This document shows positions 8,903-33,628 of a stretch of 34,228 bases of DNA, in pieces. The stretch is from a virus. Where the stretch lies: the IMG/VR virus record IMGVR_UViG_3300033995_000490, positions 1 to 34,228 of that record; one strand, written 5' to 3'. Under the pieces are notes generated by a model. That model was given only the letters and a program-made list of their open reading frames with translations, was not told the origin of the DNA and did no database searches. Numbering within the stretch: position 1 is the stretch's first letter; every line of letters begins with the position of its first letter. Both the position numbers and the translations under genes were made by a program.

Positions 8903-9088
8903 ATGCAAACACTCAAAGACATTACCGACCCAAAACACGGAAGCTACAAGGTTGGCGTGCCATTCCAACATGGCAACGGCAACGTGTACGAAATACACGG
9001 CTACAACATTAAACATCAATGCCATAGTCTACTGAATGTAGGCACAGGAAAATTTGAAGTAATGAATGATAACGAAATAACCAAATGA
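8903..9088 (+). CDS. Hypothetical protein, 61 aa
   Basis: Small beta-rich protein (MQTLKDITDPKHGSYKVGV, then GNVYEIHGYNIKHQC) with no motif I can name. Joined to the next gene by an ATGA overlap. Confidence 0.6.
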   Translation: MQTLKDITDPKHGSYKVGVPFQHGNGNVYEIHGYNIKHQCHSLLNVGTGKFEVMNDNEITK

Positions 9089-9507
9089 CACCATACCAAC
9101 GCACAGAAATTTATAAGATACTGCAAGCCCACCACGACCTAATCGGAGTGGATAAAGTTTCCGTATCATTGCTAATGAATGCTTTTAACAACTTAACCCG
9201 ATTTAGGAAGGTGGAGGATAAGGTATTTGAAGCGGTAAAGTATATCGCTGGAATAGACAAAGATGAAATTACAAGCTATCAAAAGAAAGCCGATATTATT
9301 ACGGTGAAATTTATAGCCTGTTCAATCCTGCGTGACGAGGGTTATACTTTGCGAGATATTGGATGTGCTATTCATGTAACCCATGCAACGGTAATACACG
9401 CCCTTAAACAAGACGAGTTCAGATACAAAACCTACACAGACTACCGCGAACTAAAAAATGCAATAGTTGCAAGGTATAACCAAATAAATACTAATTTAGC
9501 CAAATGA
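9085..9507 (+). CDS. DnaA domain IV-like DNA-binding protein, 140 aa
   Basis: Residues about 48-110 follow the C-terminal DNA-binding domain of bacterial DnaA: a first helix (VKYIAGIDKDEI), a second with I-T-V-K-F-I-A-C-S-I-L-R where DnaA has the R-Q-I-A-MYL helix, then T88-L-R-D-I-G93 and the recognition helix V98-T-H-A-T-V-I-H-A-L107. There is no AAA+ domain, so it cannot be a full initiator. It may bind origin or promoter DNA, or compete with host DnaA. It lies at the end of the replication block. Confidence 0.75.
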   Translation: MTPYQRTEIYKILQAHHDLIGVDKVSVSLLMNAFNNLTRFRKVEDKVFEAVKYIAGIDKDEITSYQKKADIITVKFIACSILRDEGYTLRDIGCAIHVTHATVIHALKQDEFRYKTYTDYRELKNAIVARYNQINTNLAK

Positions 9508-10040: not shown

Positions 10041-10049
10041 GTACCTTTG
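10023..10049 (+). promoter_or_regulatory. Promoter for the ParB/ABC-GNAT/formyltransferase cassette
   Basis: TTG at 10023-10025 and TACCTTTG at 10042-10049, a perfect -7 match with a 19-base offset. The ATG at 10056 comes only six bases after the -7 element, so the mRNA would be leaderless or nearly so. This gives the modification cassette its own transcription start. Confidence 0.65.
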
Positions 10050-10055
10050 TAAAAT

Positions 10056-10574
10056 ATGAAAACAGAAACTGTAAAAATATCGGAGGTTAAAAGCAACCCC
10101 AACAACCCAAGAATTATCAAAGACGATAAGTTCAAGAAGCTTGTTGAATCTGTTAAGACGTTTCCTGAAATGCTAAACATTCGCCCTATTGTAGTAAATA
10201 GCGACATGGTGGTGCTTGGTGGTAATATGCGGTTACGTGCTTGTAAAGAAGCTGGTTTGAAGGAAATACCGATAATCAAAGCCGACACGTTAACGCCCGA
10301 ACAGCAAAGCGAGTTTATCATTAAAGACAACGTAAGCGGTGGAGAATGGGATTGGGATATGCTTGCGAATGAATGGAACGCGGAGGAGTTGGATGCGTGG
10401 GGGTTGGATGTGCCTGTTTTCGCTGGCGAGGACGAGGGCAACTTTGATGATGAGGGTATAGACGGAAAAAGCCAGTACGGGGTGATTGTAATGTGCGAAA
10501 GCGAGGGTAACCAAGAAAGCGTTTTTAGGGATTTACAGGGTATGGGTTACGAGTGTAAAGTTGTCGTTACATGA
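10056..10574 (+). CDS. ParB-like N-terminal domain protein, 172 aa
   Basis: Carries the ParB/Srx fold signature: N14-PNNPR19 near the start and G55-GNMRLRA62 with the conserved arginine, followed by IPIIKADTLTPEQQ. This domain can bind CTP, cut DNA or target DNA modification enzymes, depending on the family. Phage versions often sit beside DNA methylases or other base-modifying enzymes. Residues about 140-172 form a small C-terminal alpha/beta domain seen in phage ParB-like proteins (YGVIVMCESEGNQESV). It has no helix-turn-helix centromere-binding region, so plasmid-type partition is unlikely. Overlaps the ABC ATPase gene by four bases. Confidence 0.88.
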   Translation: MKTETVKISEVKSNPNNPRIIKDDKFKKLVESVKTFPEMLNIRPIVVNSDMVVLGGNMRLRACKEAGLKEIPIIKADTLTPEQQSEFIIKDNVSGGEWDWDMLANEWNAEELDAWGLDVPVFAGEDEGNFDDEGIDGKSQYGVIVMCESEGNQESVFRDLQGMGYECKVVVT

Positions 10575-11266
10575 TAATAAAAGTTAGGAATAAAACGGGG
10601 GAGTTTACGGGCTACAGGGCATCCCGAGTAAAAAGCCTATTTAACGCGGAGAGCGGGTCGGAGTTTAACCTCGATGCTAACCTACCAATCGAGGGAATGG
10701 ATTGGCAAATAGGGCTAATTGTGGGCGCAAGCGGAAGCGGTAAAACCTCAATCGGAAAAGCACTTTTTGGGGGCGGTAAAATTGTGGACTTATACGCTGG
10801 CTGGGATAACAACATCCCGATAGTTGAGGCAATAAGCCCCGATGGGGACTTTAACTCGGTTACGGGTTGCCTTGCAAATGTCGGGCTTGGTGACGTACCG
10901 AGTTGGCTTAGGCCGTTCAGCGCGTTAAGCAACGGGCAGCAGTTTAGGGCGGGGCTTGCAAGGCTTATATCCGATGCGCCTGATGAGGTTATCGTGGATG
11001 AGTTCACCTCCGTAATTGATAGGCAAATTGCTAAAATAGGCGCGATGGCTTTTGCTAAGGGGTGGCGAAGGAATAAAGGTAAAAAGGTCGTTTTGCTTGC
11101 GTGTCACTATGATATTATCGAATGGCTACAGCCCGATTGGGTATTTGATACGGGAACGGGCGAACTAAAAAAAGGGAACAGCTCGAGCCAAGACCAAGCT
11201 TCGAGTTGGAAATTCGGAAGGTCAACCAATCTTACTGGCGATATTTTAAGCCGCATTACTATTTAG
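10571..11266 (+). CDS. ABC-type ATPase, zero-frame product (231 aa) of a predicted frameshift fusion
   Basis: A soluble ABC ATPase with all motifs in place: Walker A G52-ASGSGKTS60, signature L119-SNGQQ124, Walker B V140-IVDE144 and the H-loop H179 (LACHYDIIEW). No membrane partner is encoded, so it is not a transporter. In known relatives the ATPase continues into a Mom-like GNAT domain in one chain. Here the zero frame instead ends with about 30 low-complexity residues (from GNSSSQDQASS) after the A7 run at 11167-11173, which look like non-conserved read-on. A -1 slip there would give a 371-residue ATPase-GNAT fusion. Confidence 0.9.
   Translation: MIIKVRNKTGEFTGYRASRVKSLFNAESGSEFNLDANLPIEGMDWQIGLIVGASGSGKTSIGKALFGGGKIVDLYAGWDNNIPIVEAISPDGDFNSVTGCLANVGLGDVPSWLRPFSALSNGQQFRAGLARLISDAPDEVIVDEFTSVIDRQIAKIGAMAFAKGWRRNKGKKVVLLACHYDIIEWLQPDWVFDTGTGELKKGNSSSQDQASSWKFGRSTNLTGDILSRITI
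11167..11208 (+). promoter_or_regulatory. Programmed -1 ribosomal frameshift signal
   Basis: The zero-frame codons are CTA-AAA-AAA-GGG, so 11167-11173 is an in-frame A-AAA-AAA slippery heptamer. Five bases later a stem pairs CAGCTCGAG (11179-11187) with TTCGAGTTG (11200-11208): nine pairs, two of them wobbles, with a 12-nt loop. Heptamer, short spacer and stem-loop form the standard -1 signal. After slipping, translation continues as AGG-GAA-CAG into the GNAT frame, which has no ATG before 11275. Confidence 0.8.
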
Positions 11267-11685
11267 ATTTACCCATGCCCCCAGCGGCAGAGTACTTTAT
11301 CGGTACGGTTGACGGTGAGTTGGTTTGTCATTTAGCGGTTGGTTGTATGTTTCAAAACGATGCCTACAGGGCAACAAGATTGGTGGTTATGCCCGAATGG
11401 CAAGGCGCGGGGGTCGGAACAAGGTTTTTGGAGTACGTGGCCGAATACCATAAAAAAGGCTTAGGCCGATGCGCCAAAAAATTACCGTGCATGTTTCATA
11501 CATCGCATCCACAACTAATCGGATATTTACAAAAATCAAAAAAATGGGTACTAAAAAGCCAGCAATTACACGGTAACAAATCAAGAATTAAAATGCAAAT
11601 CGGTTCGCCATCTGGGGGAACTAAAAAATTTATGGGCGGCCACTTTCGGGCGGTGCAAGGCTTCAAGTACATAGGCGATAAATGA
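11173..11685 (+). CDS. Mom-like GNAT acyltransferase domain, reached by -1 frameshift
   Basis: The frame contributes 170 residues after the slip, beginning REQLEPRPSFELEIRKV and continuing with a tryptophan and the FKPHYYL motif. This is the linker and first strand of the GNAT half of ABC-GNAT fusions as I recall them. The acyl-CoA loop is present (VVMPEWQGAGVG), as is the Mom-type HTSHPQLI segment with a following tryptophan. The phage Mu Mom protein, a GNAT relative, modifies adenines in DNA. The only stand-alone starts are a TTG at 11206 or an ATG at 11275 that would delete the conserved N-terminus, so expression as a fusion is much more likely. Confidence 0.82.
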   Translation, partial: REQLEPRPSFELEIRKVNQSYWRYFKPHYYLDLPMPPAAEYFIGTVDGELVCHLAVGCMFQNDAYRATRLVVMPEWQGAGVGTRFLEYVAEYHKKGLGRCAKKLPCMFHTSHPQLIGYLQKSKKWVLKSQQLHGNKSRIKMQIGSPSGGTKKFMGGHFRAVQGFKYIGDK

Positions 11686-12392
11686 CGCACGAATTTTACC
11701 AAGACGAGAAAAAGCTGCGGGTTTTTATTAGCGGTCAAAAGTATTTTGGGGGGCTAATACTCCGAGAGATGCTAAAGAACCCGCTCGTTGACGTGGTAGG
11801 CGTTTGCTGCCCATTAGACGACACGCATATTGGAAAGGCCGCAGTACTTAACGGGATACCAATGGTGGCGGCTGGGTCGCTTAACGTGGATACAATGCCC
11901 GAAAACGTGGACTTGGGTATCACCGCACATTCATTTGATTACATAGGCAAGAAAACGCGTTACAAGGCGAAACTTGGATGGATTGGATACCACCCGAGCC
12001 TATTACCAAGACATAGAGGGCGCTCGTCTATTGAGTGGGCAATAAAGATGCACGACTTTGTAACAGGCGGCACAACCTTTTGGCTTAACTCGGGTATTGA
12101 TAGGGGCGACATAATTGCACAGGAGGTTGTATGGATAGACCCGAAGCTATTTAGCGTGGACGTAAAAAAGGCGGCTAAGGCGTTATGGGAGGGCGAACTT
12201 CAAGACGTAGGCGTTAGGCTTATTAATCAAACGGTGGCCGACATAATCGCTGGGCGTGGCAAAAGAACACCCCAACAAAATAAATTTAGTACCTTTGAGC
12301 CGAGCCTAAAAGTTAACGACATTTACCGCCCAGATGCGCTAATGATTGAACATAGGCCATCGGATAAAACAGCGAACTTACAGCGTGGCTAA
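11682..12392 (+). CDS. Formyltransferase-fold enzyme with altered catalytic triad, 236 aa
   Basis: The Rossmann-like fold of PurN/Fmt-type formyltransferases is recognisable: an initial strand (LRVFISGQKYFGG), the loop H104-PSLLPRHRG, then GGTTFWLNSGI and D140-RGDI. H104 and D140 are 36 residues apart, as for H108 and D144 in PurN. The triad asparagine expected two residues before the histidine is a glycine (G102-Y-H104). So the usual formyl transfer from 10-formyl-THF may be lost, changed or use another residue. The gene overlaps the GNAT frame (ATGA), suggesting it acts in the same pathway, perhaps on a modified base or its precursor. Host tRNA or sugar substrates cannot be excluded. Confidence 0.85.
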   Translation: MTHEFYQDEKKLRVFISGQKYFGGLILREMLKNPLVDVVGVCCPLDDTHIGKAAVLNGIPMVAAGSLNVDTMPENVDLGITAHSFDYIGKKTRYKAKLGWIGYHPSLLPRHRGRSSIEWAIKMHDFVTGGTTFWLNSGIDRGDIIAQEVVWIDPKLFSVDVKKAAKALWEGELQDVGVRLINQTVADIIAGRGKRTPQQNKFSTFEPSLKVNDIYRPDALMIEHRPSDKTANLQRG

Positions 12393-12708
12393 TCCCCAAA
12401 ACATAGAGAAGCATAAATTTCCAAAGGGACAGACGGGAAACCCCAACGGTCGACCTCGTAAGTTGCCCGAGTTGGACAAACTCTTGGCCGATGTATTGGG
12501 CGAAGAAAAGGACGGGATAAGCGCAGCAGAAGCGATATTAAAGGCGTTGAGATTAAAGGCCGCAAAGGGTGACGTGAGGGCTATTGAAGTGATGTTAGAC
12601 CGAGCGTATGGAAAGCCAAAGCAAACAATAAGCGCGGATGTTACGCAATCAATAACTATCCTAAACATCGACCCGTTAGATGATTCAATCGACAACGGCA
12701 CTACGTAA
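12385..12708 (+). CDS. terS: Small terminase subunit candidate, DUF5681-type, 107 aa
   Basis: Begins ANPQNIEKHKFPKGQTGNPN then GRPRK, the hallmark of the DUF5681 family that commonly precedes large terminase genes in Bacteroidota phages. A helical C-terminal part (about 30-85) fits a DNA-recognising, oligomer-forming small subunit. I chose the GTG at 12385 because it places the conserved motif at the N-terminus; a TTG at 12346 would add 13 unrelated residues. Overlaps the formyltransferase by 8 bases and the large terminase by 29. Confidence 0.8.
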   Translation: MANPQNIEKHKFPKGQTGNPNGRPRKLPELDKLLADVLGEEKDGISAAEAILKALRLKAAKGDVRAIEVMLDRAYGKPKQTISADVTQSITILNIDPLDDSIDNGTT

Positions 12709-13870
12709 AATAGCTGGGCTAAAGAAACGCATCAAAGTAATTCGGGGCGGTCAAGGAGCAGGCAAAACAATAAGCGTACTAATCCTGCTGATTAACCATG
12801 CGGCAAGCAAGCCTGACAAAGAGATTCTAATCATAAGCGCGGAGTTGACCAAGATGCGCTTGACTGTGATTAAGGACTTTGTGAAGGTGATGAAGATGGC
12901 AGGCATTTACGATGAAAGGCGGTTTATAGCTGGCACTCTTTACAGATTTGCAAACGGTTCTTTCATCAAATTCATAGGGCTGGATAAGCAGGATGTCGGC
13001 AAGGGATTACGCTCAGACATTGTCTATTTTAATGAGGTTAACAAATGCGACTCAGAAAGTTACAGGCAAGTTGCTACAAGGGCTGGCAAGGTAATTAGCG
13101 ATTACAATCCTGATGCTAAATTCTTTATTGATACAGAGGTAATAGGCCGCGAGGATTGCGACTTTTTGCAGCTAACATTTGAGGATAACGAACTGCTTGG
13201 AATAGATGAGCGTAACGAAATACTCAACTACAAGCGTTTGGGCTATAATGAGGATGGCAGCGTTAAAAATAGCTATTGGGCGAACATTTGGCGTGTGTAT
13301 GGACTGGGCGAAGTTGGGGCATTGCAAGGCGTGGTATTCAGCGACTGGAGCGAAATAGATTCAGTTCCACCTAGCGCAAAAATGGTAGGATTTGGAATGG
13401 ATTTTGGATATACGAACGACCCGACCACCTGCATTGTGGCCTATGAATACAACGGCCAAAGAATATACGATGAGTTGATTTACCAAACAGGGCTGCTAAA
13501 TGGTGACATTGCGGCCTTACTCAAATCAAACGGAATAAGCAAACAGGACAAGGGCTATGCTGACTGCGCAGACCCCAAAAGCATTGATGAAATTAACCGC
13601 TACGGATTCAATCTAAAGCCTGTAACCAAAGGCGCGGATAGTATTGCTTTCGGGATTAGCATCATGCAAGGGCAGCCGTTTCAAGTTACGAAAAGAAGCG
13701 CAAATATCAAAAAGGAATTGAACGCTTATTGCTGGGATACCGATAAGGACGGCAATACAATCAACAAGCCTATTGATGCCCACAACCACGCTATTGATGC
13801 CATGCGATACGTTGAGATGATGCTAACCATCAAACCATCATTCAAGCCATTTAGAGCGATCCAATTTTGA
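12680..13870 (+). CDS. terL: Large terminase subunit, 396 aa
   Basis: The packaging motor and nuclease. Walker A is G23-GQGAGKT30 and Walker B is D113-IVYFNE119 with the catalytic glutamate. The C-terminal RNase H-like nuclease is marked by D241 in GMDFGYTNDPT, D298 in ADCADP and D366/D373 in DAHNHAIDAMRY. This motif set resembles PBSX/Terminase_3-type subunits. The length is slightly short but complete. It is followed by tail genes rather than the portal, which is unusual. Confidence 0.95.
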   Translation: MIQSTTALRKIAGLKKRIKVIRGGQGAGKTISVLILLINHAASKPDKEILIISAELTKMRLTVIKDFVKVMKMAGIYDERRFIAGTLYRFANGSFIKFIGLDKQDVGKGLRSDIVYFNEVNKCDSESYRQVATRAGKVISDYNPDAKFFIDTEVIGREDCDFLQLTFEDNELLGIDERNEILNYKRLGYNEDGSVKNSYWANIWRVYGLGEVGALQGVVFSDWSEIDSVPPSAKMVGFGMDFGYTNDPTTCIVAYEYNGQRIYDELIYQTGLLNGDIAALLKSNGISKQDKGYADCADPKSIDEINRYGFNLKPVTKGADSIAFGISIMQGQPFQVTKRSANIKKELNAYCWDTDKDGNTINKPIDAHNHAIDAMRYVEMMLTIKPSFKPFRAIQF

Positions 13871-32179: not shown

Positions 32180-32492
32180 GGCAATGGAAGCAGAGGGAAT
32201 AGGCGCAATTATTACGGCAATCGGAGGACTTGCCGGCGGTGCGTGGGGCGGTATTCGATTGGGTAAGAACCAGCAACTCGAAGAAGTCAAAGGGCTTATT
32301 ACGCAATATAAGGAAGCTAACGAATTTACCAAAGGCGAGATGGCCGACATTAAAGAAAGTCTAAGCGAAACAAGGCAACTGCACAGGGAATGTGAGGAAG
32401 GTCGTAAGGGCTTGGAGGTAAAAGTAGACGGACTTCAGAACGAAATGAGACGAATGGAGACGATTATACTCAAACACATTAAAGCAGACTAA
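32166..32492 (+). CDS. Membrane/coiled-coil protein, possible lysis or tail accessory, 108 aa
   Basis: After MAHFKAMEAEG comes a glycine-rich hydrophobic segment (about 12-30, IGAIITAIGGLAGGAWGGI), then about 75 residues of coiled coil. Chosen start ATG 32166 overlaps the holin-like gene by 14 bases. Looks like a membrane-anchored helper of lysis. Confidence 0.55.
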   Translation: MAHFKAMEAEGIGAIITAIGGLAGGAWGGIRLGKNQQLEEVKGLITQYKEANEFTKGEMADIKESLSETRQLHRECEEGRKGLEVKVDGLQNEMRRMETIILKHIKAD

Positions 32493-32605
32493 TGGCTAAA
32501 ATCATCGTAGGGGGCAAATTCAAGCCCCGTGTTAAGCGCAAATTGAGAAGGCATAGTAAGTATCGGGCGAAGGGATTTAAGGCGTACAGGGGGCAAGGAA
32601 GATAA
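32492..32605 (+). CDS. Very basic 37-residue protein
   Basis: MAKIIVGGKFKPRVKRKLRR then a further K/R-rich stretch ending YRGQGR. About 14 of 37 residues are K or R. Starts in the previous stop (TAATG). Similar tiny basic proteins occur, as I recall, in other Bacteroidota phages, which suggests conservation. It could bind DNA or RNA. Confidence 0.6.
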   Translation: MAKIIVGGKFKPRVKRKLRRHSKYRAKGFKAYRGQGR

Positions 32606-32608
32606 TAC

Positions 32609-32616
32609 TATATTTG
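32609..32616 (+). promoter_or_regulatory. Candidate leaderless promoter
   Basis: TATATTTG followed by TCGC and then ATG at 32621. The close spacing predicts a leaderless mRNA for the phosphoesterase gene. No TTG at the usual distance upstream. Confidence 0.5.
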
Positions 32617-32620
32617 TCGC

Positions 32621-33628
32621 ATGGCATTATCGGGCGAAGTCGTAAAGGAAGCATTAGCCAAATGGCCTGACTTGCCATCGCTTACATTAGCCCGTAAGTT
32701 GCATGAAGATAACCCCGAAGTATTTACAAGCGTTGGGGCTGCAAGGTGTTCAATTCGCTACTATCGCGGCACACATGGCAAAGTAAGCAGAAAGCAAAGG
32801 AAACTCGAAAAACCACAACCAGCAATGCAAGCAACCGCAATGGGAATACCGAATCCTTTCTACTTACCCGAAAGCGATGAAGTAGAATGGGAACCGTACA
32901 TCATACCGCCATCGGTAACGCGGTTACTTATCCTTTCAGATATACACATCCCATACCACAACGTTAACGCGATTACGTTAGCCCTTCAATACGGCAAGGA
33001 TAGGAACGTGAACGGCATAATGTTAAACGGGGATATTCTCGATTTTTACGGGCTGTCTACATTTGAGAAAGACCCAAGAAAAAGACGGTTTTCTGCAGAG
33101 TTAGAAATGGGTAGGCAGTTCCTTTCAATACTCCGTAAAGAGTTTGACGGTGTGCCAATCTATTACAAGCTTGGCAACCATGAGGAAAGATACGAACGCT
33201 ATTTGCGAATCAAAGCGCCCGAACTTTTGGACGTTGCCGAATTTAGGATGGACGTTCTTTTGAAGTTTGGCGAAATTGGAGTTGAGTTAATAGACGACAA
33301 ACGCATTATCAAATTTGGCAATTTAAACATTATGCACGGCCACGAATTTGGCAAGTCGGTATTTAGCCCTGTTAACCCAGCACGTGGGCTATACATGAGG
33401 GGCAAAGAGAATTGCATAGCTGGGCATAATCACCAAACAAGCAGCCACGTTGAACCAAGCATGAACGGCTATGTGGTCAACACGTGGTCTACAGGATGCC
33501 TTTGTGAGCTGCACCCTTCCTATATGCCCATCAACAAATGGAATCTTGGATTTGCCTATGCCGAACGCGAACAAGATAACGGGTTTACAGTTCACAATCA
33601 TACCATCATTAAGGGCAAAATTCGATGA
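32621..33628 (+). CDS. Calcineurin-like metallophosphoesterase, 335 aa
   Basis: All five motifs are present: D107-I-H109, GD138 (LNGDILDFYG), G-N186-H187-E, H239-G-H241 and G-H269-N-H271. Residues 1-75 form a separate basic helical domain with a possible helix-turn-helix (ALAKWPDLPSLTLARKL), so it may act on DNA, RNA or a nucleotide. Similar fusions occur in phages. Substrate unknown. Likely transcribed from its own promoter. Confidence 0.9.
   Translation: MALSGEVVKEALAKWPDLPSLTLARKLHEDNPEVFTSVGAARCSIRYYRGTHGKVSRKQRKLEKPQPAMQATAMGIPNPFYLPESDEVEWEPYIIPPSVTRLLILSDIHIPYHNVNAITLALQYGKDRNVNGIMLNGDILDFYGLSTFEKDPRKRRFSAELEMGRQFLSILRKEFDGVPIYYKLGNHEERYERYLRIKAPELLDVAEFRMDVLLKFGEIGVELIDDKRIIKFGNLNIMHGHEFGKSVFSPVNPARGLYMRGKENCIAGHNHQTSSHVEPSMNGYVVNTWSTGCLCELHPSYMPINKWNLGFAYAEREQDNGFTVHNHTIIKGKIR

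Follow-up and report, generated by a model that had tools for sequence, protein, structure and literature searches.

What is the function of a phage cassette in which a ParB-like protein, an ABC ATPase, a GNAT acyltransferase domain and a formyltransferase-fold protein (FT) are encoded end to end, and how is the acyltransferase made when it lies out of frame with the ATPase? The question is raised by the 34,228-nt viral sequence analyzed here (the window; IMG/VR record IMGVR_UViG_3300033995_000490), in which an initial annotation had proposed these genes as a DNA-modification system. The locus has the following features.

10042..10049, + strand: TACCTTTG octamer, weak -7 box candidate, 6 nt 5' of the ParB ATG (motif match)
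10056..10574, + strand: ParB_N-domain protein, 172 aa, ending in a C-terminal small module (ORF; Pfam ParB_N 2.3e-8)
10467..10571, + strand: small module, residues 138-172 of the ParB-like protein (KSQYGVIVMCESEGNQESVFRDLQGMGYECKVVVT); most relatives encode it as a separate protein
10571..11266, + strand: ABC ATPase alone, the zero-frame product, 231 aa, TAG stop at 11264-11266 (Pfam ABC_tran 1e-6)
11167..11173, + strand: slippery heptamer A_AAA_AAA (CTA AAA AAA GGG, 11165-11176; in-register conservation among relatives)
11173..11685, + strand: -1 frame extension with the GNAT domain; predicted slip product ABC-GNAT, 371 aa (Pfam, PHROG, fold model of a relative)
11179..11208, + strand: 8-bp hairpin (11179-11186 with 11201-11208), 5 nt past the slippery run (covariation)
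11206..11685, + strand: GNAT-domain ORF, -1 frame relative to ABC (Pfam Acetyltransf_7 9e-7)
11682..12392, + strand: FT, 236 aa, FDH-hydrolase-like, with H104, S106, D140 and Gly102 in place of Asn (Pfam Formyl_trans_N 8e-17)
12385..12708, + strand: DUF5681 protein, probable terminase small subunit, GTG start (DUF5681 1.2e-16)
12680..13870, + strand: terminase large subunit (Pfam, PHROG)

All four of the reading frames initially described as overlapping are real, with 4-nt overlaps in the ParB/ABC and GNAT/FT pairs. Since no convincing start was found for the GNAT frame itself, it is more aptly regarded as the second half of the ABC gene, set in a shifted frame. As had also been described, the cassette lies directly before the terminase, with the DUF5681-type small subunit (12385) followed by the large subunit (12680-13870). 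The proposed leaderless-type promoter is harder to sustain. It comes down to a single TACCTTTG 6 nt before the ATG, which we take to resemble the -7 box of Bacteroidota promoters. Octamers of this type occur 4 times in the window against 1.25 expected, and because no TTTG (-33) box was found upstream of this one at the tested spacing, we treat it as a weak candidate.

The loci of relatives were picked by similarity scans, including a genome scan for ABC-GNAT relatives with an in-frame alignment as query, and near-identical loci were merged on the identity of one 300-nt stretch only, leaving 172 distinct loci, with that of the window as L001. Among these, the GNAT frame is fused in frame to ABC in 121 and shifted by -1 in 50, a ratio that is not a natural frequency, since each scan kept its best 80 matches; the one locus in neither class (L086) is poorly aligned. 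A single family, PHROG 11143, spans both ABC and GNAT, which are thus one protein in relatives. At the level of sequence, the view that the two act as one protein is supported.

The junction itself points to how the two halves are joined. A slippery run is present in all 50 of the -1 loci, as at least 7 A in 49 and as A_AAA_AAG in one (L172), while a run of at least 7 A lies at the junction in 2 of the 121 in-frame loci. The heptamer A_AAA_AAA is in register in all 47 readable loci with a run of A7-11, two -1 loci being unreadable; the phase count left out L019 and L023, in which the ABC frame is closed by an earlier stop. Slippery site and frame are accordingly associated (48/48 -1 loci versus 2/121 in-frame loci; Fisher p 3e-40). 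In the A7 subgroup to which the window belongs, the downstream hairpin is paired in 72 of 72 cells across 9 distinct sequences, compared with 8-51% in slid controls, and compensatory changes occur at 3 pairs. Taken by itself, the window's own hairpin is unexceptional (z -1.2), and an Rfam search of the window returned no match.

An argument can be made that such a break reflects an error in sequencing or phase variation of the tract rather than programmed recoding. Runs of A9-11 are slippery for polymerases, and two in-frame loci, L027 (A11) and L204 (A10), fall within the frameshift group in a locus tree of 159 of the 172 rows and could be ON variants. Yet the 50 clear out-of-frame loci are all -1 and none is +1, the tract of the window is only A7 and recurs unchanged in two further IMG records (L001, L002), and a covarying hairpin lies 5 nt downstream in its subgroup. 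The frame break in the window exceeds chance or sequencing error; we consider the error or phase-variation reading very improbable and programmed frameshifting at this site highly probable. Slippage could also be transcriptional, through stuttering of RNA polymerase on the A tract. Tracts of A9-A11 make up 38 of the 47 readable -1 loci and lack a common hairpin (mean z of -0.9 and -0.6 versus -0.7 in the in-frame control), so transcriptional slippage may serve in that subgroup. In the window, however, the tract is only A7 and is accompanied by a hairpin, and the A_AAA_AAG of L172 is a classical ribosomal frameshift site. A transcriptional mechanism therefore seems quite improbable for the window, where we judge with good confidence that slippage is ribosomal.

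The frameshift-controlled fusion is the best-supported part of the initial annotation, borne out by the 50 -1 loci and their slippery runs. Because ABC and GNAT are joined only via the slippery site in these loci, most product would be ABC alone, with ABC-GNAT made by a fraction of ribosomes. The predicted arrangement resembles -1 programmed frameshifting of the dnaX type, where an A_AAA_AAR site and a downstream hairpin give rise to short and long forms of an ATPase; it differs in that the extension in the window adds an acyltransferase. The frameshift may have been gained once, or gained and then lost, since both histories are compatible with an approximately unbiased (AU) test in a later tree of 93 rows. 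Specifically, a single origin of the frameshift loci was not rejected (AU p 0.646), and an unconstrained search left them ungrouped. We also considered a dual-coding constraint on the tail found only in the ABC product. Codon entropy is reduced in the overlap, but the same drop is seen in in-frame relatives (identical-codon fraction difference of 0.28-0.36 in the frameshift groups versus 0.32 in near in-frame relatives). With synonymous constraint no stronger than in those relatives, we do not claim selection on this tail.

The ATPase half carries intact Walker A, signature (LSxGQ), Walker B, D-loop and H-loop motifs, all kept in relatives, and the H-loop originally quoted for it is both present and conserved. 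An identity as an ABC transporter is not supported, given that no membrane partner is encoded next door. As the initial annotation had it, no permease-family match was found when 10 proteins encoded around the gene in the window were compared with Pfam and PHROG, a result that concerns the neighborhood and not distant genes. Complete ABC motifs and a GNAT joined to the ATPase, both found in the window, are features of a predicted class that has a name in the literature, contrary to the claim that the combination could not be named. According to PMC7824862, which cites the work for Tenacibaculum phage pT24, Iyer et al. 2013 predicted an ABC ATPase plus GNAT to be a system for acyl modification of DNA bases. 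The ABC gene of pT24 (32477-33238) is a tblastn relative of the window ABC (42%). The window type differs from the pT24 system by its frameshift join, FT and small module; no gene annotated as a formyltransferase was seen within the 6.5 kb of pT24 that we read. Our literature search returned no recognized account of a frameshifted ABC-GNAT or of bases formylated in this way, although Iyer 2013 may cover more of the cassette.

Upstream of ABC, a module of 35 to 45 aa is present in 158 of 168 loci, after setting aside 4 loci with less than 150 nt of upstream sequence. The module is free-standing in 114 of 153 loci, which is the form in Mu-like phages, and otherwise forms the C-terminus of a ParB-domain protein. 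In the window, residues 1-121 of the ParB-like protein match PHROG 498 "DNA methyltransferase" (7e-28) and residues 137-171 match PHROG 28816. Given how often the module stands alone, a necessary targeting role for the ParB domain is not supported; where present, the domain probably helps with loading or site choice.

The GNAT has the standard acyl-CoA loop, and the model of a relative matches the fold of acetyl-CoA GNATs (1y9k, Z 14.9; 6ao7, Z 14.0). We found little to sustain the initial comparison with Mom of phage Mu and rejected homology: BLASTP gave an E of 1.2, the Mom family (PHROG 1384) had no match at E<=1, and a Mom gene was found in 0 of 36 cassette records, that of the window included, with a profile that does find Mom in Mu. 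The likeness is one of position. In a Mu-like Porphyromonas phage, taken as an annotated example, the stretch 33155-34883 of 35050 encodes the module together with ABC-GNAT and FT, at the same end as com-mom in Mu (35768-36602 of 36717). In both arrangements the right end of a transposable phage carries a small gene that overlaps one for an acyltransferase fold, a position found in relatives and not in the window, and both involve translational control, Com being annotated as a translational activator. They differ in that ABC and FT have no counterpart in com-mom, and in that Com matches PHROG 13819 whereas the cassette module matches PHROG 28816. A transposase related to a Mu-like protein query was found in 23 of 28 free-module records and 0 of 8 ParB-type records; since this query misses the transposases of Mu and Komp_PAO1_1, the 5 misses among the 28 are uninformative. 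The window had no match to it, and Pfam PF02914 (Mu transposase) matched no record, controls included. The window cassette adjoins the terminase rather than a Mu-type right end, which we count against our best explanation.

Of the 142 loci whose sequence extends far enough downstream, 123 have FT after ABC-GNAT (37/37 frameshift and 86/104 in-frame loci), and ABC-GNAT lies directly upstream of all 25 FT relatives listed by an FT-only scan, so the genes do travel together. Furthermore, FT and ABC-GNAT distances are correlated (r 0.60 over 135 loci; the highest value among 500 shuffles was 0.07). Amine formyltransferases such as Fmt, GART and ArnA have an Asn-His-Asp active site. FT departs from this site: all 141 relatives read (142 pieces, one gapped at the motif) keep His, Ser and Asp, and none has the Asn, which is replaced by Gly, Ile or Val. 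The best sequence match is to the hydrolase domain of 10-formyl-THF dehydrogenase (FDH; 6.5e-13, compared with 6.7e-8 for Fmt). A fold search also placed FDH first (Z 27.1, rmsd 1.3 over 187), in a tie with Fmt (Z 26.5). The FDH domain passes formyl to a pantetheine thiol, and the non-Asn position and His-Ser-Asp triad of such thiol-formylating enzymes are both present in FT. FT shares with the ALDH1L1 hydrolase domain its fold, the YHPSLLPRHRG motif, the triad and the lack of Asn; it differs in being shorter and stand-alone, with neither carrier domain nor dehydrogenase, and in the residue that stands in for Asn (Gly, Ile or Val). FDH itself has Ile there, and I104N leaves <10% activity (PMC4388273). 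HypX, proposed to formylate CoA (PMC6802093), has an N-terminal domain of the same formyl-THF fold (Z 19.9 to FT, below FDH), with Asp80 instead of Ser and a second, enoyl-CoA-hydratase-like domain. In many in-frame relatives FT is short and lacks part of the N-terminal half, the first Met lying 60-odd residues before HPSLLP (45 loci). From the missing Asn and the resemblance to the FDH hydrolase domain, we propose that FT is a formyl-CoA maker. It would then more likely supply an acyl donor than tailor the product, the role first assigned to it.

How firmly does this point to DNA? One alternative is that the GNAT acylates a host protein (e.g., RNA polymerase) or RNA while FT drains 10-formyl-THF. 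Phage GNATs that act on host proteins are known, the example given in PMC7824862 being Rac of phiKMV-like phages. The com-mom position of the cassette in Mu-like relatives, a ParB domain common to DNA methyltransferases, and the siting of the cassette ahead of the terminase or, alternatively, in the late right end all speak against this reading, which we regard as improbable. Alternatively, and closer to the scheme of the initial annotation, the GNAT could draw on host CoA thioesters to put an acetyl or other acyl group on DNA, after which FT would formylate or trim the attached group. The GNAT fold fits acetyl-CoA enzymes, and with FT absent from 18 of 104 in-frame loci, the GNAT can act with another donor. 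This order of events is nevertheless rather unlikely, because the amine-formylating Asn is missing from every FT read, and the residue at this position is important in FDH (PMC4388273). Modification of DNA, as initially suggested, is still the best guess, owing to the com-mom position, the ParB domain of phage DNA methyltransferases and the published ABC-GNAT prediction (PMC7824862), now without likeness to Mom. The cassette probably performs DNA acyl-modification, formyl as the transferred group is a tentative choice, and we lean slightly toward the full explanation of the window cassette as a phage DNA-modification system.

In that explanation, the core would be the small module, the ABC ATPase and the GNAT. 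ABC domains would form an ATP-gated dimer on DNA, while frameshifting would cap the number of dimers carrying a GNAT, so that ribosomal slippage would set GNAT dose and play the role that Com plays for Mom in Mu. FT would move formyl from 10-formyl-THF to CoA, and late in infection the GNAT would pass it to the exocyclic amine of a DNA base, rendering phage DNA resistant to host nucleases. It is conceivable, if doubtful, that phages thus N-formylate their own DNA with formyl-CoA made by an FDH-like enzyme at a dose set by programmed ribosomal frameshifting. We hold it equally speculative that this is a DNA modification, and a control over it, not described before and present in phages and prophages from several bacterial phyla. 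If true, phages would have in frameshifting a novel means of holding a modification enzyme in check, and relatives would deploy it at the genomic place that Com and Mom take in Mu. A one-line prediction that ABC-coupled GNATs acylate phage DNA becomes a system open to testing: its parts are defined, formyl-CoA is its candidate donor, and changing two codons would mutate its control point. Among named phages with the system that can be cultured are Gordonia phage BiggityBass, where it occupies genes 1-3, Pseudomonas phage Komp_PAO1_1, which grows on PAO1, and Leptospira phage LE3, for which the search gave no FT.

The ABC ATPase and the GNAT acyltransferase domain of this cassette are, judging from their sequences, one protein. 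In PHROG 11143, a family annotated as having unknown function, the ABC occupies the first 197 positions and the GNAT positions 205-351. As the initial annotation had described, four reading frames precede the terminase genes of the window, a virus record of 34,228 bases, and the GNAT is not in the frame of the ATPase:

10056-12392: cassette, in the order ParB_N-domain protein, ABC ATPase, GNAT (-1 frame of the ATPase) and formyltransferase-fold protein (FT), with the terminase genes directly 3'
11165-11176: slippery site, CTA AAA AAA GGG
Context genes of the record: ERF protein, Gp157 protein, VapE-type primase, tape measure, protease and portal

Just 5' of the cassette, at 9085-9507, lies a gene for a 140-aa protein that matches the DnaA C-terminal helix-turn-helix (Pfam 4e-8).

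Three viral-contig scans, one genome scan and annotated phage records, with the best 80 matches kept per similarity scan, gave 261 loci, and the 172 that were distinct and carried both domains were used to count frames. The GNAT was in frame with the ABC in 121 and in the -1 frame in 50; the remaining locus, L086, fitted neither but is poorly aligned, and apart from it none of the 172 had a +1 GNAT. Random sequencing errors or phase-variable tracts would be expected in both frames, and the 50 loci in -1 with no clear +1 therefore argue against either source. Furthermore, an A run of at least seven was found at the junction of 49/50 loci of the -1 class vs 2/121 in-frame loci. A_AAA_AAA was in register in all 47 runs with a readable phase, a count outside which L019 and L023 fall, their phase not being readable; the junction of L172 is A_AAA_AAG. 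The two in-frame loci with long runs, L027 (A11) and L204 (A10), both sit within the frameshift group on the tree and look like natural one-base frame restorations. These results uphold the frameshift-controlled fusion proposed from the window, where the slippery site is the predicted join: a -1 slip would yield an ABC-GNAT of 371 residues, and without it the ABC stops after 231.

The recoding signal includes a hairpin in the window's own subgroup. Specifically, an 8-bp stem starts 5 nt 3' of the run in all nine distinct A7 loci. Across these loci, which are 65-91% alike, 72/72 cells were paired, with compensatory changes at three pairs, vs 8-51% in slid controls. Mean folding z was -2.1 for A7 loci (with L172), compared with -0.7 for in-frame controls, -0.9 for A9 loci and -0.6 for A10-11 loci. 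The longer A tracts may act alone or via transcriptional slippage.

That the genes travel together, as first suggested, was supported by their neighborhoods. The FT lay 3' of the GNAT in 123 of 142 loci with at least 700 nt downstream (frameshift, 37/37; in frame, 86/104; other, 0/1), and in each of the 25 loci that a scan for the FT by itself returned, ABC-GNAT immediately preceded the FT. Distances of the FT and ABC-GNAT were correlated over 135 loci (r 0.60; maximum 0.07 in 500 shuffles). Upstream of the ABC, a small module of 35-45 residues was present in 158/168 loci with at least 150 nt of sequence there; in distant loci without a match to its HMM, the C-terminus mostly looked similar by eye. 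Among 153 module loci with at least 600 nt upstream, the module was the C-terminus of a ParB-domain protein in 39 and not in 114. The ParB half, initially assigned a targeting role, is therefore optional. If the ABC match is taken to start at the start codon, the module's reading frame runs 4 nt into the ABC gene in 112 of these 153 loci.

This module swap accompanies a change of genomic home. Records with the free module had a Mu-like transposase match in 23/28 and ParB_N in 0/28, vs 0/8 and 7/8, respectively, for ParB-type records. ParB-type loci adjoin terminase or portal genes (the window, L207 and L213). Porphyromonas phage007a also carries genes resembling MuA, MuB and Gam, and its genome ends with the module, ABC-GNAT and FT (33155-34883 of 35050), much as that of Mu ends with com and mom (35768-36602 of 36717). 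In the five records whose coordinates were compared (L013, L023, L035, L046 and L049), the transposase is at the end opposite the cassette, on the same strand. In the bacterial genomes L245 and L248, baseplate genes precede the cassette, which in L248 is followed on the opposite strand by a host-type gene for a molybdopterin-binding protein. A profile that detects Mom in Mu found no Mom gene in 36 cassette records and four further cassette phages.

Nor is the GNAT related by sequence to Mom, with which it was first compared, and we rejected this homology. In a model of the in-frame relative L027 (pLDDT 86.7), the ABC part resembled the nucleotide-binding domains of ABC proteins at Z near 15, and the GNAT part matched the acetyl-CoA GNATs 1y9k (Z 14.9) and 6ao7 (Z 14.0). 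A GNAT loop, R-L-V-V-M-P-E-W-Q-G-x-G-V-G, is conserved and fits acyl-CoA binding. A relative of the window, L003 (4507-5007), has 98% identity in ABC, 97% in FT and 99% in TerL; its GNAT has just 74% and its small terminase 86%, which suggests either a mosaic breakpoint within the GNAT or its rapid evolution.

The active-site make-up of the FT resembles that of the hydrolase of 10-formyl-THF dehydrogenase (FDH). Three residues were invariant in 141/141 FTs read, namely the catalytic His, a Ser two positions further on, and the Asp. In 142 FT pieces, the position two before the His held Gly in 91, Ile in 40, Val in 9 and Ser in 1, with one gap, and never Asn. The closest solved sequences were FDH hydrolase domains (6.5e-13; best Fmt, an amine formyltransferase, 6.7e-8). 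FDH was also the top fold match of the window FT model (pLDDT 88.4; Z 27.1, rmsd 1.3 over 187 residues), with Fmt tied at 26.5 and HypX at 19.9. One FDH study places Ile104 where amine formyltransferases have a crucial Asn, puts I104N activity below 10%, and describes participation of a thiol, 2-mercaptoethanol or 4'-phosphopantetheine (PMC4388273). FDH and FT are alike in lacking Asn at this position, with Ile104 in the former and Gly, Ile, Val or Ser in the latter. Other studies describe a carrier arm that transports the formyl group in ALDH1L1 (PMC8748788) and propose formyl transfer to CoA by HypX (PMC6802093). Taken with the Asn-free site, these accounts lead us to infer that the FT passes formyl to a thiol, CoA being the simplest candidate. 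In many in-frame loci of Bacteroidota (e.g., L049 and L181), the FT is about 160 aa long, its N-terminal half shortened and the His-Ser-Asp site unchanged.

The substrate is probably DNA, given the com-mom-like position, a ParB domain also present in phage DNA methyltransferases (PHROG 498), and a published prediction that ABC-coupled GNATs are DNA base acylators (PMC7824862). The FT would make formyl-CoA, from which the GNAT would move the formyl onto an amine of a base. The reaction would be gated by DNA-bound dimers of the ABC, most of which would carry zero or one GNAT as a result of frameshifting, and the ParB half would help loading. By sequence, the cassette appears to be a variant of this already predicted kind, with a frameshift, an FDH-like FT and a small module; in literature searches that did not extend to the prediction's 2013 source, we recognized no paper on any of the three in this setting.

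Some relatives carry other labels. Gene 3 of Gordonia phage BiggityBass (L082, 1823-2473), annotated as "tRNA-methyltransferase," matches the FT family PHROG 9240 at 7e-38. The 42-aa module gene of phage007a (L084, 7876-8004) is annotated as "acr candidate protein"; this anti-CRISPR label is doubtful, since the gene matches PHROG 28816 and is a conserved partner of ABC-GNAT.
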